Assembly (NCBI RefSeq): GCF_003633725.1
Contig: NZ_RBIJ01000001.1
Location: 317,934-381,933 of the forward strand
Direction of reading: 5' to 3'
Length of the DNA: 64,000 nucleotides
Source: Brockia lithotrophica
GTDB lineage: Bacteria > Bacillota > Bacilli > Thermicanales > DSM-22653
Numbering within the stretch: position 1 is the first letter of the stretch; each line of letters opens with the position of its first letter. The translations under genes were made by a program, and so were the position numbers. Below the pieces are notes generated by a model. That model saw nothing but the letters and a program-made list of their open reading frames with translations. It had not been told where the DNA came from and ran no database searches. Of this stretch, positions 1,037 through 57,151 are shown piece by piece.

Positions 1037-1122
1037 AAAAAAACGCCGGCACCGGATCTCGCACCTTAGGGCTGCTTCGTTTCCGACCTGACCCGGTTCG
1101 GTACTCCATCCGTGCCGACGCA
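1037..1122 (-). ncRNA. ffs: SRP RNA (short, 4.5S-like)
   Basis: The minus strand carries the conserved SRP domain IV: GGGTCAGGTC, then a GGAAAC tetraloop region, then GAAGCAGCCC (about 1094-1068). Outer strands CGTCGGCAC (1120-1112) and GTGCCGGCG (1052-1044) pair over nine positions with one G-U and close the hairpin. Seven T residues (1043-1037) follow directly, so the closing helix doubles as the terminator. The transcript is about 80-86 nt, the size of the Gram-negative 4.5S RNA, and shows no Alu domain. It binds Ffh for co-translational membrane targeting. Confidence 0.88.
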
Positions 1123-1128
1123 AAAGCT

Positions 1129-50524: not shown

Positions 50525-50530
50525 GCGGTG

Positions 50531-51229
50531 GGTTCATCCCCGCGTGCGCGGGGGAAACACGGCGATATCGCCGTCCTCCACGATGGGCTGCGGTCCATCC
50601 CCGCGTGCGCGGGGGAAACAGCGGGCGGTACTGTCCTAGTACTACCCTGTCCGGTCCATCCCCGCGTGCGCGGGGGAAACATTTCCGCGATCATCTTTCT
50701 CGTTGGCGGTGCGGGTCCATCCCCGCGTGCGCGGGGGAAACTCTACCGCACCGCTAAACGTCTTGTCGCTGGTGGGTCCATCCCCGCGTGCGCGGGGGAA
50801 ACTTGAGAGCGGTCTCAAGCTGGTCGATCCGCTCGGGTCCATCCCCGCGTGCGCGGGGGAAACATTCTTCTAATAATTGATGAGGCCTCTATTTTGGGTC
50901 CATCCCCGCGTGCGCGGGGGAAACCAGCGACCACGCCGCCTTCCACGACCTGTCCAGGGTCCATCCCCGCGTGCGCGGGGGAAACCTCATGGTCTTCATG
51001 CCATCACCACCTACTTTAGGTCCATCCCCGCGTGCGCGGGGGAAACGAGCTCAGACTCCACCTGCTGGGCCGCATAGCGGGTCCATCCCCGCGTGCGCGG
51101 GGGAAACTCTTGACTTTTTGCGCCGCACCTACACTGGCATGGTCCATCCCCGCGTGCGCGGGGGAAACCAGTCCGGGTTCATCTGGCACGCGCACCCGTA
51201 CGGTCCATCCCCGCGTGCGCGGGGGAAAC
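50531..51229 (-). CRISPR. Type I-E-like CRISPR array, 12 repeats, no adjacent cas genes
   Basis: A 28-base repeat occurs 12 times with a period of 60-62 bases. Its plus-strand reading starts GGTCCATCCCC and ends GCGGGGGAAAC, first at 50531-50558 and last at 51202-51229. Read on the minus strand it starts GTTTCCCCCGCG and ends GGGGATGGACC, matching the I-E pattern (E. coli ends GGGGATAAACCG, Thermus GGGGATGGACCG), so transcription should be leftward. The repeat at 50531 has one substitution (T at position 3 of the plus reading), as expected for the trailer end. Spacers are 32-34 bases. No I-E cas gene is in the window. Confidence 0.95.
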
Positions 51230-51496
51230 CCTTGACAACAGGTTTTTTTGTGGTATAATCGCGCCTTCCACTGACCCGCTCAATCGTTCTTCCATTGAAT
51301 CGGGGATCACCGAAGGTCGAGCGGGCTTAACAAACTTCACCTTGCTGGACATTAACTTACCTTTCTTCGGATTGCCCGTCAAGCGGAAACCTCGGCAAAA
51401 AGGCCGTTCCGGAAATCCGGTGCCGCCAGCGAACGGCCTTGTCTCTGTTTTTGTACCGGACAAAGGCGTTCACGGACAAACCCATCGTTCTGGGTA
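51230..51496 (-). promoter_or_regulatory. Probable leader of the I-E array, with opposing signals
   Basis: This gene-poor stretch lies at the leader side of the array. On the minus strand, TTGACG and TAAGTT with a 17-base spacer (about 51384-51355) could drive the array. On the plus strand, TTGACA (51232-51237) and TATAAT (51254-51259), 16 bases apart, form a perfect promoter pointing away from the array. AAGGCCGTTC (51400-51409) pairs with GAACGGCCTT (51431-51440), with T-rich tracts on both sides (51397-51452). It can end lexA on the minus strand and the outward transcript on the plus strand. Confidence 0.5.
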
Positions 51497-51497
51497 A

Positions 51498-52160
51498 CTA
51501 CGAAAGGACGCGAAAAACGCCCACCACCTTGCCGAGGATGCGGAATTCGAGGTCGGTGAGTGGGGGATACTCTGGGTTTTCCGCGACGAGGACCGCTTGC
51601 TTTCCTTGAAAACGAAGGCGTTTTATCGTTGCCTCTCCGTCGGACGTAAGGGCGAGGACGATTTCTCCTTCTTCGGCCGTGTCTTGGCGGCGGATGAGAA
51701 CGTAATCCCCGTCGAAAATCCCTGCACCGGTCATGCTGTCTCCGCGAACCCGAAGGTAAAAGAGTGGGTTTTCCGAAGACCTGTAATCGGTAAGGGAAGC
51801 GGGGGCATACATGCTCCCTTCGGGGTTTTCCAGCGCTTCACGCGGATTTCCAGCAGGTGTGTGGCCGAGAAGGGGAACCTCGCGCACTTCCTCTGCCTCG
51901 TTTACGGCAGGAAGAGCGTTCTCCGCGTTTTGGGAGGCCGGATCTTGAAGTTTAAGAGAGCGCGACATCTTGGGGTGGCGCTGGATCGCGCCCTTATGTT
52001 CGAGTCGTTTGAGGTAGTAATGGGCAGAGGCCGTCGAGCTGAGTCCCATACCTTCGGCGATTTGCCGTACGGTGGGCGGGAAGCCGTGCGCCTGGTAAAA
52101 CAGGCGGATGAAGTCGAGGACCTCGCGTTCGCGCGGGGTGAGCTCGGACGTTCTTTTCAC
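51498..52160 (-). CDS. lexA: LexA repressor
   Basis: A 220-residue SOS repressor. The winged helix (1-70) has FPPTVRQIAEGMGLSSTASAHYYLKRLE. The cleavage site is Ala103-Gly104 in GHTPAGNP; the catalytic dyad is Ser142 (RGDSMTGAGI) and Lys180 (TIKRLR). GTG at 52160 follows GAGAGGAG; the frame continues upstream without support. TATACT (52221-52216, minus strand) is a likely -10. No clear SOS box is visible next to it. Confidence 0.93.
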   Translation of the reverse strand: MKRTSELTPREREVLDFIRLFYQAHGFPPTVRQIAEGMGLSSTASAHYYLKRLEHKGAIQRHPKMSRSLKLQDPASQNAENALPAVNEAEEVREVPLLGHTPAGNPREALENPEGSMYAPASLTDYRSSENPLFYLRVRGDSMTGAGIFDGDYVLIRRQDTAEEGEIVLALTSDGEATIKRLRFQGKQAVLVAENPEYPPLTDLEFRILGKVVGVFRVLS

Positions 52161-52309
52161 GGGAACGCACTCCTCTCCGGCGCCGTTCGGCGGCGTACCG
52201 AATGCATTTGCTTCGAGTATACCACGCGAACGCCTGTATGGGGAATTGTGGGAGCGGGAGAACGCGCGCGGGCGGAGCGAGTCGTAGGACAAAAATCGAG
52301 AGACAAAAG

Positions 52310-52339
52310 TTGACTCGGGGAAAAACAGGGGCATATAAT
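52310..52339 (+). promoter_or_regulatory. Promoter of the Mg2+ ATPase transcript
   Basis: TTGACT (52310-52315) and TATAAT (52334-52339) with an 18-base spacer. The expected start near 52346 leaves an untranslated leader of about 200 bases. Confidence 0.7.
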
Positions 52340-52345
52340 GGGCGA

Positions 52346-52548
52346 GGACAAAAACGTCCCGGACACGGGCCGTCGCGGCGGCGCAGCGGAGGTCTACGGG
52401 ACGATGGGCCGCAGCGCTTCGACCGAGACGGCCTTTTTGCTGTGCCGCTACGAATGCCGGAATCTCGGGACGGGTTGGGGGAGGGATACTTCGTGGGCAA
52501 GATCCGCATTCTACGGGCGATGCAAGCACGGGGAAAGGTGGTGGGACC
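52346..52548 (+). promoter_or_regulatory. Long leader with internal terminator-like hairpin before the Mg2+ ATPase
   Basis: GGCCGTC (52368-52374) can pair with GACGGCC (52427-52433), and five T residues follow at once (52434-52438). The intervening 52 bases can fold on their own. This gives a terminator about 90 bases into the transcript and 110 bases before the start codon, the layout of an attenuator or riboswitch. I cannot match it to the M-box core or other known classes. The ribosome binding site GGGAAAGGTGG is close to the GTG. Confidence 0.45.
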
Positions 52549-55329
52549 GTGTTGAACCGGATCCGGGAATTCTGGCAGCTGCCGGGCGGAAACAGCGCTT
52601 CCAAGTGGGCTAACGGAGTCGGACGGGCTCCCAGGCGTCGGGGCGGTCTCGACCCCATCGTCGAGCTCCAGAGTCGGGAAATGCAGGCGACGCTCCTCGA
52701 AGTGAGCGATCTCCCTGTAGAGGCCGTGTACGAGCGGCTGCGAACTTCGCCTGCAGGGCTATCCGACGATGAGGTGGAGAAGCGTCTCGAAGAATTTGGG
52801 CCCAACGAGATCCCGGAAAAACCCGAACTCACCGTTCTTCGGCGCCTCTACGAGGCCTTTGTGAACCCTTTTAACGTCGTCCTCCTCCTTCTCGCCGTCG
52901 TCTCGACGTTTACGGACATCGTGTTCGTGGCTCCTGAAGATCGGGATCCGTCGGGCGTGATCATCATCCTCACGATGGTCACCGTAAGCGGAATCCTCCG
53001 CTTCGTCCAGGAGTGGCGGAGCGACCAGGCGGCAGAGAAGCTCAAGCAGCTTGTCGACCTCACGATCGCCGTACGGCGTGCCGGACGGGAGCCGACGGAG
53101 ATTCGTACGGAGGAACTCGTTCCCGGTGACGTCGTGCACCTCGCCGCGGGGGACATGATCCCGGCCGATCTGCGAATCGTGAGCGCCAAGGACCTCTTCG
53201 TAAACCAGTCGGCACTCACGGGGGAAGCGGAGCCGGTAGAGAAGGTGCCCACGCCGTGCCTCGGAGCGTGCGAGGGTCCTCCTTCGTCCAACCCGCTGGA
53301 ACGGCACAACCTCGCCTTCATGGGCTCGAGCGTCGTGAGTGGTTCGGCCGTTGGCATCGTCGTCGCCACGGGACCGCGGACGTACTTCGGCCACGTGGCC
53401 AAGACGCTCACCGAGCGGCGCGAGGCTACGAGCTTTGAGGTGGGGGTCAACCAGGTCTCTTGGCTCCTCATCCGCTTCATGCTCGCGATGGTGCCCGTCG
53501 TCTTCTTCCTGAACTTCCTCACCAAGCACGACTGGCTCGACGCCCTCCTCTTTTCCCTCGCCGTGGCCGTGGGCCTCACGCCGGAGATGCTCCCCATGAT
53601 CGTCACGGCGGGGCTCGCCAAGGGCGCGGTCTTCATGAGCAAGAAAAAGGTCATCGTGAAGCGCCTGAGCGCCATGCAGAACTTCGGAGCGATGGACGTC
53701 CTGTGTACGGACAAGACGGGGACGCTTACGCAAGACAAGATCGTCCTCGAGTTTTACCTCGACGTGCACGGCGACGAAGAGCCGCGGGTGCTCAAACACG
53801 CCTTTTTGAACAGCTACTTCCAAACTGGGCTCAAAAACGTGATGGACCGGGCGATCCTGGCCCACGTAGGCGAAGAGTTCGACTGGATGAAGACCCACTA
53901 CGAAAAGGTCGACGAAATCCCCTTTGACTTCGTGCGCAAGCGCATGAGCGTCGTCGTCCGCGACCAGACGGGGAAGACACAGCTCATCACAAAAGGCGCC
54001 GTCGAAGAGATGCTCAAGGTGTGCTCGTACGTAGAGTACCGCGGTCAGGTCGTCCCCTTGACGGAGGAACTTCGGCGCGAGGTCTTGGAAAACGTCTACA
54101 GCTTGAACGCCAAAGGGTTGCGCGTGCTCGCCGTCGCCCAAAAGACGAACCCGCCGCCCGTGGGGCAGTTCACCGTAGAAGACGAGCGTGACATGGTTCT
54201 CATGGGGTACCTCGCCTTTTTGGACCCGCCCAAGGAGTCGGCCCCCAAGACGATCGCCGAACTCAAGGAGTACGGGATCGCGCTCAAGATCCTCACGGGC
54301 GACAACGACGTCGTCACCAAGGCGATCGCTGACCAGGTGGGGATCGACACCCACCACATCCTCCTCGGGGCGGACATCGAGGCGATGGATGACGAGACCT
54401 TGCGCCGCGAGGTGGAGCGCACCACGGTCTTTGCCAAGCTTTCGCCCGCGCACAAGGCGCGCATCGTCAAGGCCCTTCGGGAGAACGGCCACACTGTGGG
54501 CTTTCTGGGCGACGGAATTAACGACGCCCCGGCGATGCACGCCGCCGACGTAGGCATCTCTGTAGAAAACGCCGTGGACATCGCCAAGGAAGCGGCGGAC
54601 ATCATCCTCCTCGAACGCGATCTGGGCGTTCTCGTGGACGGTGTCGTCGAAGGGCGTCGCACCTTCGGCAACATCATGAAGTACATCAAGATCACGGCGA
54701 GCTCCAACTTCGGGAACGTGTTTTCCGTGCTCGTGGCGAGCTGGCTCTTGCCCTTCTTGCCCATGCAACCCATCCAGCTCTTGTTCCTCAACCTCACCTA
54801 CGATCTGTCCATGACGACGATGCCCTGGGACCGCATGGACCGCGAGTACCTCAAAAAGCCCCGGAAGTGGGACGCCCCGATCATCGGCCGCTACATGGTT
54901 TGGCTCGGCCCGACGAGTTCCGTCTTCGACATCACGACCTACGCCCTCATGTTCTTCCTCATCGCCCCTGCGGTGGTCGGCGGGTCTTACTTTGTCCTGC
55001 CGGACGAGTTGAAGCCGCAATTCGCATCGGTATTCCAAACGGGCTGGTTTGTGGAGAGCCTCTGGACGCAGACGCTCGTCGTGCACATGCTCCGTACCGA
55101 AAAGATCCCCTTCCTCCAGAGCCTGCCGGGCGCCCCGCTCTTCTTGGCCACGGCGCTTGCCGTCACCGTAGATACGCTCGTTCCTTACACGCCCATCGGC
55201 ACCTACTTGGGGATGACTCCCTTGCCTGGGTTTTACTTCCCCTGGCTCGTGGCGACGCTTCTTGCGTACCTCGTCCTCGCGCAGTTCGTGAAAACGCGCT
55301 TCATTCGGCGCTACGGGTACCTGATCTGA
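52549..55329 (+). CDS. mgtA: Magnesium-translocating P-type ATPase
   Basis: A 926-residue P3B-type ATPase importing Mg2+. The actuator loop NQSALTGEAEPVEK, the phosphorylated Asp388 in CTDKTGTLTQDK, KGAVEEML for nucleotide binding and LGDGINDAPAMHAADVGISV for the hinge are present. Ten membrane helices fit the family, four before and six after the catalytic loops. LTGEA replaces the common LTGES. GTG at 52549 is used. The gene is preceded by a long leader and followed 13 bases later by an unknown gene. Confidence 0.93.
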   Translation: MLNRIREFWQLPGGNSASKWANGVGRAPRRRGGLDPIVELQSREMQATLLEVSDLPVEAVYERLRTSPAGLSDDEVEKRLEEFGPNEIPEKPELTVLRRLYEAFVNPFNVVLLLLAVVSTFTDIVFVAPEDRDPSGVIIILTMVTVSGILRFVQEWRSDQAAEKLKQLVDLTIAVRRAGREPTEIRTEELVPGDVVHLAAGDMIPADLRIVSAKDLFVNQSALTGEAEPVEKVPTPCLGACEGPPSSNPLERHNLAFMGSSVVSGSAVGIVVATGPRTYFGHVAKTLTERREATSFEVGVNQVSWLLIRFMLAMVPVVFFLNFLTKHDWLDALLFSLAVAVGLTPEMLPMIVTAGLAKGAVFMSKKKVIVKRLSAMQNFGAMDVLCTDKTGTLTQDKIVLEFYLDVHGDEEPRVLKHAFLNSYFQTGLKNVMDRAILAHVGEEFDWMKTHYEKVDEIPFDFVRKRMSVVVRDQTGKTQLITKGAVEEMLKVCSYVEYRGQVVPLTEELRREVLENVYSLNAKGLRVLAVAQKTNPPPVGQFTVEDERDMVLMGYLAFLDPPKESAPKTIAELKEYGIALKILTGDNDVVTKAIADQVGIDTHHILLGADIEAMDDETLRREVERTTVFAKLSPAHKARIVKALRENGHTVGFLGDGINDAPAMHAADVGISVENAVDIAKEAADIILLERDLGVLVDGVVEGRRTFGNIMKYIKITASSNFGNVFSVLVASWLLPFLPMQPIQLLFLNLTYDLSMTTMPWDRMDREYLKKPRKWDAPIIGRYMVWLGPTSSVFDITTYALMFFLIAPAVVGGSYFVLPDELKPQFASVFQTGWFVESLWTQTLVVHMLRTEKIPFLQSLPGAPLFLATALAVTVDTLVPYTPIGTYLGMTPLPGFYFPWLVATLLAYLVLAQFVKTRFIRRYGYLI

Positions 55330-55342
55330 GGGGGCAAACGGC

Positions 55343-56899
55343 TTGGCGGAAACGGTACGGGTAACGGTCTACCGTGCGGTTCGGGGGGACGGGTGCCTCG
55401 ATCGCCTCCTCGTTCTGCCGTTTTCCGAAAAACCGGGAGAAAAGGTCGGGCAAGCCTTTCCCCGCGGCAACGAAGGGAAAGGGACTTCCCTCTTCGTCTC
55501 TCGGGCCGAGCGTCTCGGAGACCTTTTCGGACGGATGGCGGAAGCGGCGCGGCGTCGTGCCCCCCAGGTGATCCTCCTCACGGGAAATACCTGGGTGGCG
55601 CGGCGCGCATTCCACTTCCTCAGGGGCGATCTTCTGCCACACGAAGGCGTAAGAAGGCCGCTCGCTTCCGAAGGGGGTGGACTCAGCTCCCTTCCGCCGA
55701 AGGAGGGGGAGGTCGTCTTCCTCACGGGACGGCAGCGCCCGGCGGGACGCGCTCTCCTCCTCCGCCGCCTTCCTCGGGAGCACCCGTCCGTCCTCGTGAT
55801 CGACGCTTCCGCCCCCCTAGGCTACGGCAGAGAAGAGCTTTTCTCCTTGCTCGACACCCTCGTTTGCAAAGACCCGGCCGCCGTAGAGTTTCTCGTGGAC
55901 GGAACGTGCCGAAGCTACGCCTACCTCGGCTCTCTCTCGCCGAGCGATCGCTTTGCGCCTTCCGCCGCTGAGGGAGGCGCTTCGGGTGCGGAAGCAGAGG
56001 GACGCCCTTTTGCTGAGCTTCCGGAGTTGGCAGAGGTGCACGGGGAGCTTCCTCTCGAAGCACCGCTTTCGCAGGTCCTCGCCGAAATCTTCATCCAGGA
56101 CGAGGCAAATGGGGGAGACGAGGTGTTTGTGTTGTGGCGCGCGGACCTCGCTCCCGAGGACGTGGTCGAGGCGCGTGCGGAGGAAGGGAAGGACCGCCTC
56201 GTGCGCTACTTCCGGGCGATGCCGCCGCTTCTGCACGAATGCATGCCGCTTTCGTTTGCGGAGCTTCTCGTTTGGCTTGCGGGAGAAGGAGGGAGCCCGC
56301 GCGACGCGCTCGTCCTCACGCCCCCTTTCCCCGAACCGGAGCGGAACGTCCGCGTCGACCTCCTTTCGGAACGGTTGGCCGATGGGCAGGGGGTTCGTCC
56401 GGAGGAATGCGTGATCTTCCCCTTGGTCTACGGCGGTGCGGACGAATACGGTTGGGACCCATGGCGAGGGGAGACCTCACCATACACCGCCGTACACGCC
56501 GCCGGAGTTCGCATGGGGCTCGAGGGGGTGCCCGAACCCGTCGTCCTTCCCCTCACCTTTGCCCACCTCGAGGAGTACGTGCTCGACCCGACCGGTGGGG
56601 CGGACCGTGCCGCGGATCTGCCGACCCTTCGCCGCGGACTTCGCGAACTCGTCCTGGCGCTCGAGCGAGAGGGGGGTTGGAAGGGCGATTTCCCGCCCGT
56701 GTGGGAGTACCTCGACCTCCTCTCCCGGAGTGAAAACTTGCACGCAGAATTTCGCGCGTTGAGCGCCTTTTTACGTGGACGCGCGCTGCGTGTCGCCGCC
56801 CATCCCCTGCGGGAACGTTGCCTCGACGGAACGCCCGTTCCCCGCGGGATCCTCTTGGAACTCGACCTCGGGTCTCGGGCGGGGCTACTTTCCTCTTGA
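55343..56899 (+). CDS. Unknown 518-residue protein
   Basis: I do not recognise this protein. It is soluble, acidic and without a signal peptide. Stretches that look structured are APQVILLTGNTWVARRAFHF (about 73-92), PSVLVIDASAPLGYGREELF (about 148-167), GDEVFVLWRADL (about 258-270) and ECVIFPLVYGGADEYGW (about 355-371). Two blocks have alternating hydrophobic strands suggestive of Rossmann-like folds, separated by a Gly/Ala-rich linker near residue 205. TTG at 55343 follows GAGGGGG, 13 bases after mgtA, so it is probably co-transcribed with it. The high G+C and the length make an open frame by chance possible, but spacing and codon pattern favour a real gene. Confidence 0.6.
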   Translation: MAETVRVTVYRAVRGDGCLDRLLVLPFSEKPGEKVGQAFPRGNEGKGTSLFVSRAERLGDLFGRMAEAARRRAPQVILLTGNTWVARRAFHFLRGDLLPHEGVRRPLASEGGGLSSLPPKEGEVVFLTGRQRPAGRALLLRRLPREHPSVLVIDASAPLGYGREELFSLLDTLVCKDPAAVEFLVDGTCRSYAYLGSLSPSDRFAPSAAEGGASGAEAEGRPFAELPELAEVHGELPLEAPLSQVLAEIFIQDEANGGDEVFVLWRADLAPEDVVEARAEEGKDRLVRYFRAMPPLLHECMPLSFAELLVWLAGEGGSPRDALVLTPPFPEPERNVRVDLLSERLADGQGVRPEECVIFPLVYGGADEYGWDPWRGETSPYTAVHAAGVRMGLEGVPEPVVLPLTFAHLEEYVLDPTGGADRAADLPTLRRGLRELVLALEREGGWKGDFPPVWEYLDLLSRSENLHAEFRALSAFLRGRALRVAAHPLRERCLDGTPVPRGILLELDLGSRAGLLSS

Positions 56900-56924: not shown

Positions 56925-56989
56925 CGAGACAAAGCGTGTGCGGAAAATCAACGAGCGGTTCCTTTTCAAGCGAAAACAGCACGTCCGAC

Positions 56990-57099
56990 CTTATCCAGAG
57001 TGGCGGAGGGACGGGCCCGATGAAGCCCGGCAACCGGCCGCGTGAAGGCGGCGGCACGGTGCCAATTCCCGCAGGACGGCAAAGTTCTGGGAGATAAGG
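56990..57099 (+). promoter_or_regulatory. SAM-I (S-box) riboswitch
   Basis: The conserved S-box core is complete: CTTATCCAGAGTGGCGGAGG, GACGGGCCCGATGAAGCCCG, GCAACC, GGTGCCAATTCC and the closing GGGAGATAAGG that pairs with the 5' CTTATC. It binds S-adenosylmethionine and, with the terminator downstream, lowers expression of the methionine transporter when SAM is plentiful. Confidence 0.97.
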
Positions 57100-57114
57100 T
57101 TCGGGGAAGCCTGC

Positions 57115-57151
57115 AAAGGCCCCTTTCTGATCCCAGAAAGGGGCCTTTTTC
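57115..57151 (+). terminator. Riboswitch expression-platform terminator
   Basis: AAAGGCCCCTTTCT (57115-57128) pairs with AGAAAGGGGCCTTT (57135-57148), with a T tract reaching 57151. It ends 37 bases before metN and is the regulated terminator of the SAM switch. Confidence 0.93.

Follow-up and report, generated by a model that had tools for sequence, protein, structure and literature searches.

The mgtA leader of Brockia lithotrophica features a promoter, a G+C-rich hairpin, a T-tract, and a start codon in succession on the same strand, and may act as a promoter-proximal transcription attenuator of mgtA, placed where relatives have an M-box. We give this reading a probability of about one half. 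The leader is likely a new, lineage-restricted control element of a known kind. The window analyzed is a stretch of 64,000 nucleotides from a genome of 1.87 Mb that is 99% complete, and the comparison covers two sequences from one genus—B. lithotrophica and the one congener compared, G001, whose MgtA is 96% identical.

The gene mgtA (52549..55329, plus strand) encodes a magnesium-translocating P-type ATPase with matches to TIGR01524 (1187.6 bits) and NF011702 (1210.5 bits), which agrees with the Mg2+ ATPase identity given by the first-pass annotation. Its start codon is GTG 52549 or TTG 52552, preceded by the Shine–Dalgarno-like AAAGGTGGTG (52534..52543, plus strand). Near this start, a 74-nt run (52630–52703) is the same in both congeners and is the longest in the gene; given the substitution rate, such a run is not unusual (p 0.14). 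The promoter TTGACT-18-TATAAT (52310..52339, plus strand) matches 11 of 12 consensus bases, has both hexamers unchanged in the congener, and is the sole promoter-like site within 1.7 kb, where 0.4 are expected. With the start point placed at ~52345 from the −10 box, the leader spans 204 nt up to 52548, of which the 22 nt at the 5′ end (52345..52366, plus strand) precede the hairpin. The good promoter and the leader of about 200 bases described earlier from the letters alone are thus both borne out. The possibility that the leader encodes an N-terminal extension of MgtA was rejected: the frame is open, yet it holds no in-frame ATG, GTG, or TTG in B. lithotrophica, and the leaders of the two congeners differ by 13 nt, which is no multiple of three.

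The divergent neighbor is lexA (51498..52163, minus strand; TIGR00498, 178.7 bits), so that a terminator in the leader could act on the mgtA promoter only. The lexA promoter region carries a LexA-box-like CGAACGCCTGTATG (52227–52240), which is the same in the congener and lies ~70 bases from the mgtA promoter. A CRISPR-like array (50528–51260) with 28-nt repeats GGTCCATCCCCGCGTGCGCGGGGGAAAC separates an aminotransferase-like gene from lexA; at this position, the congener has just ~150 nt. On the other side, a 518-aa ORF (55343–56899) is found between mgtA and a SAM riboswitch. It is weakly like part of Cas3g (PADLOC E 1.2e-9) and has no Pfam match. The congener lacks this ORF, and its SAM riboswitch comes ~180 nt after mgtA.

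The terminator-like hairpin of the leader (52367..52434, plus strand), identified by folding and kept in the congener, is built in two parts: a lower stem GGGCCGTC/GACGGCCT formed by 52367–52374 with 52427–52434, and an inner stem formed by 52380–52388 with 52410–52418, which carries an apical loop (52389–52409). The GGCCGTC/GACGGCC stem with TTTTT singled out by the first-pass annotation lies within the lower stem (52368–52374 and 52427–52433) and, hence, is part of a larger structure; because its arms are 52 nt apart, it goes unlisted by a simple consensus scan. A T5 tract (52434..52438, plus strand), which is T6 in the congener, abuts the 3′ arm. The tract is short, with five T followed by GC. 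Folding yields one closed hairpin ending at the T-tract with −39 kcal/mol. The z-scores of −2.6 for this hairpin (4 of 200 dinucleotide shuffles equally stable) and −2.4 for that of the congener (3 of 200) are somewhat flattering, since the hairpin limits were picked after viewing the fold. Among the 118 tracts of at least five T on both strands of the window, the leader hairpin ranks third in stability. The first rank is held by the bacterial small SRP RNA (1038–1123, minus strand), which features a T7 tract at its end. The stability of the whole 237-nt leader region is unremarkable (z −1.7).

By alignment, the congener keeps the promoter, the hairpin, and the T-tract with unchanged spacing, and the 3′ arm together with the T-tract comprises 17 nt that are identical in both species. 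The 5′ arm varies (GGGCCGTCGCGG versus GGGCCTTCGGGC); its pairing is kept with a shifted register. Of the substitutions, 11 fall within the 21-nt apical region and 6 within the arms, which total 47 nt (Fisher p 0.001). The congener form of the hairpin has −36.5 kcal/mol, a value equaled in 4.5 to 5% of trials with substitutions at random sites, and randomization in the reverse direction gave equal stability in 3% of trials; these are modest p values for a hairpin chosen from its fold. The search for covarying stems suggested in the first-pass annotation showed that the hairpin is kept in the one congener and that the number of compensatory base pairs between the two hairpins is zero. Together with one mismatch in B. 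lithotrophica, this leaves the structure supported, not proven. Neither an M-box match nor the lack of a conserved stem in relatives, which the same annotation had named as counterevidence to its proposal, was found, as stem and T-tract are both kept in the congener. A model of the leader, searched against 399 genomes of the class with strict filters, matched the two congeners only; two extra matches in class genomes (E 0.01–0.04) were rejected for their poor stems. Second copies in the same genome were likewise rejected, since the two best weak matches lie inside protein genes, which we take by inspection to be a lipoprotein-like gene and the gene of ribosomal protein uL22.

As an attenuator, the leader would function in the following way. 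RNA polymerase would begin near 52345, and the strong two-part hairpin (52367–52434) would form, followed by U5. Some transcripts would end at U5 after ~94 nt, and others would read through 110 nt more into mgtA, with a termination efficiency that may be regulated. At the moment polymerase reaches the end of the U-tract, the terminator fold is the most stable one or close to it in either species, both at 37 and at 60 °C. Once 10 to 20 further bases have been added, the best fold of each species has the U-tract paired. In B. lithotrophica only, the segment GCTGTGCCGC (52439..52448, plus strand) is able to invade the hairpin at its 5′ arm; the congener segment downstream of the T-tract extends the same hairpin instead. 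An antiterminator common to both species was not found, and a two-state switch is unsupported, as the alternative pairings differ and are not conserved. Two further candidates possible in B. lithotrophica, the pairing CGTCCCG/CGGGACG and a small GGAC/GTCC hairpin at the 5′ end, were rejected because they are lost in the congener. The 22 nt ahead of the hairpin are too few to hold a separate upstream aptamer, and a classical aptamer-plus-switch arrangement in the mgtA leader is unlikely. The ion sensing proposed in the first-pass annotation, hence, finds no support, given this short 5′ end and alternative pairings that differ between the species. Antiterminators are not universal in attenuators, and some attenuators are under the control of a bound factor. 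With no room for an aptamer and no conserved antiterminator, any regulation would have to target the hairpin itself, a trans-acting factor, or polymerase pausing. That Mg2+ is the signal is guessed from the identity of the gene alone.

In relatives, the mgtA leader is occupied by the M-box (ykoK leader, RF00380); M-boxes mostly act via intrinsic termination (PMC4072509). It differs from the leader described here in its size—a model of 169 positions compared with 22 nt before the hairpin—and in having no covariance match in the genus. A search of all 4227 Rfam families against the leader, including M-box, yybP-ykoY, NiCo, and the enteric leaders, gave nothing above cut-off; with E values up to 10 admitted, Termite-flg alone matched, with 15.8 bits versus a cut-off of 40. 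The leader of the congener has no Rfam match either. With the M-box model, neither leader gave a match even when E values up to 5–10 were admitted, and an M-box was found neither in the two whole genomes of the genus nor in three other family members examined. The same search does give a match in B. subtilis, as it does in 17 of the 61 genomes examined in the group. The absence of an M-box core noted on first reading is thereby upheld, and extends to the whole genome. Directly upstream of mgtA, an M-box is present in 3 of 3 orthologues identified in the class and in 19 of the 36 homologues scanned from beyond the genus. The tree joins the genus (96/89) to an M-box-bearing Thermoanaerobacter MAG sequence and an M-box-free Hydrogenobacter MAG sequence. 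On the basis of this grouping, replacement or loss of the M-box in the genus appears plausible but not certain. A more novel reading is improbable: an undescribed Mg2+-responsive RNA that replaced the M-box at mgtA and whose terminator hairpin, with no separate aptamer, would sense Mg2+ by itself or be read by some factor.

The S-box leader at 56988–57150 resembles the mgtA leader by carrying a hairpin and T5 before a transport gene, and its similar GGCC-TTTTT terminator, 4.5 kb downstream, makes T5 plausible in the mgtA leader. This SAM riboswitch (90 bits) is an ordinary one preceding an ABC transporter ATPase gene; it features the intrinsic terminator GGGGCC-TTTTT (57115–57150) and served as a control. 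Unlike intrinsic-terminator attenuators such as the S-box, the mgtA leader has no recognizable sensor domain or conserved antiterminator.

Among the alternatives to attenuation, a plain structured 5′ UTR, whose hairpin would shield or shape the mRNA without causing termination, is unlikely. It would fit the shortness of the T-tract with GC next to it and the pairing of the U-tract in both best folds once 10 to 20 more bases are present; however, the T-tract right behind the 3′ arm is kept exactly, as T5 and T6. A stand-alone sRNA of ~94 to 95 nt acting in trans is quite unlikely. Here, promoter, compact hairpin, and T-tract would make up a complete small transcript, with conserved segments at the 5′ end, the inner stem, and the 3′ end, and mgtA would be expressed via read-through or an unseen promoter. 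This reading is countered by the occurrence of the leader as a single copy that lies immediately ahead of mgtA in both genomes, by the lack of a second promoter-like site before mgtA, and by the lack of an Rfam match.

The region downstream of the hairpin features a 20-codon ORF (52493..52555, plus strand) that runs from GTG 52493 to TGA 52553–52555, so that its stop overlaps the mgtA start, and that is a candidate for translational coupling. A Shine–Dalgarno-like GGGGGAGGG (52477..52485, plus strand) precedes it and is conserved in the congener, as are the start, the frame, and the stop. No indels occur from the GGGGGAGGG site to the mgtA start; several occur in the remaining leader. Judged by this arrangement, coupling of the short ORF to mgtA is possible. 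Substitutions in the short ORF are distributed over the codon positions as 4/4/3, compared with 27/12/156 in the mgtA body, and, hence, selection on its peptide is not seen. The first-pass statement that there is no clear leader peptide calls for a qualification: it had missed this ORF with its good ribosome-binding site, which bears no coding signature. Control by a leader peptide would be at odds with the layout: no short ORF before or within the stem–loop is shared by both species—an ATG inside the B. lithotrophica hairpin is missing from the congener—and the common candidate sits downstream. In the enteric mgtCBR leader, translation of short ORFs is proposed to determine which stem–loops form (PMC3641672). 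The enteric mgtA and mgtCBR leaders resemble the present one in being long, in belonging to an Mg2+-transport gene, in possibly holding a short ORF, and in transcription that would enter the coding region conditionally. Unlike in mgtCBR, the only candidate ORF shared by B. lithotrophica and its congener comes after the hairpin and bears no coding signature. The Mbox with a short ORF upstream of Mycobacterium tuberculosis pe20 is similar in combining an Mg2+-related leader and a short ORF close ahead of the gene, and dissimilar in being a true M-box with Rho-dependent termination (PMC12810186). A control that is chiefly translational, with the 20-codon ORF coupling mgtA translation and the hairpin being secondary, is very unlikely: the conserved Shine–Dalgarno-like site, start, frame, and stop and the indel-free stretch speak for it, whereas the codon-position pattern and the commonness of GTG-start short frames in G+C-rich DNA speak against it. 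A functionless chance hairpin in a G+C-rich leader, for which the unremarkable z-score of the whole leader and the use of just two related sequences could be cited, is the least probable explanation in view of rank 3 among 118 T-tracts and of conservation in the congener, whose changes gather in the loop.

The attenuator reading gains its interest from the set of Mg2+ transporters in the genus. Neither CorA nor MgtE was found in either of its two genomes; in the family, each of the other genera has three CorA. The single Nramp protein in the B. lithotrophica genome features DPGN and MPH motifs, which we take to be those of manganese-type Nramp transporters, and a second P-type ATPase is presumably of the Ca2+ type, going by general resemblance. 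With no CorA, no MgtE, and an Nramp protein with manganese-type motifs, mgtA is the only clear Mg2+ importer recognized. How mgtA is controlled without the usual riboswitch is, thus, a fair and testable question. If the hairpin sets only a fixed level of read-through, the leader would be an ordinary attenuator; a response to Mg2+ would make so short a hairpin leader a much simpler means of control than the M-box.
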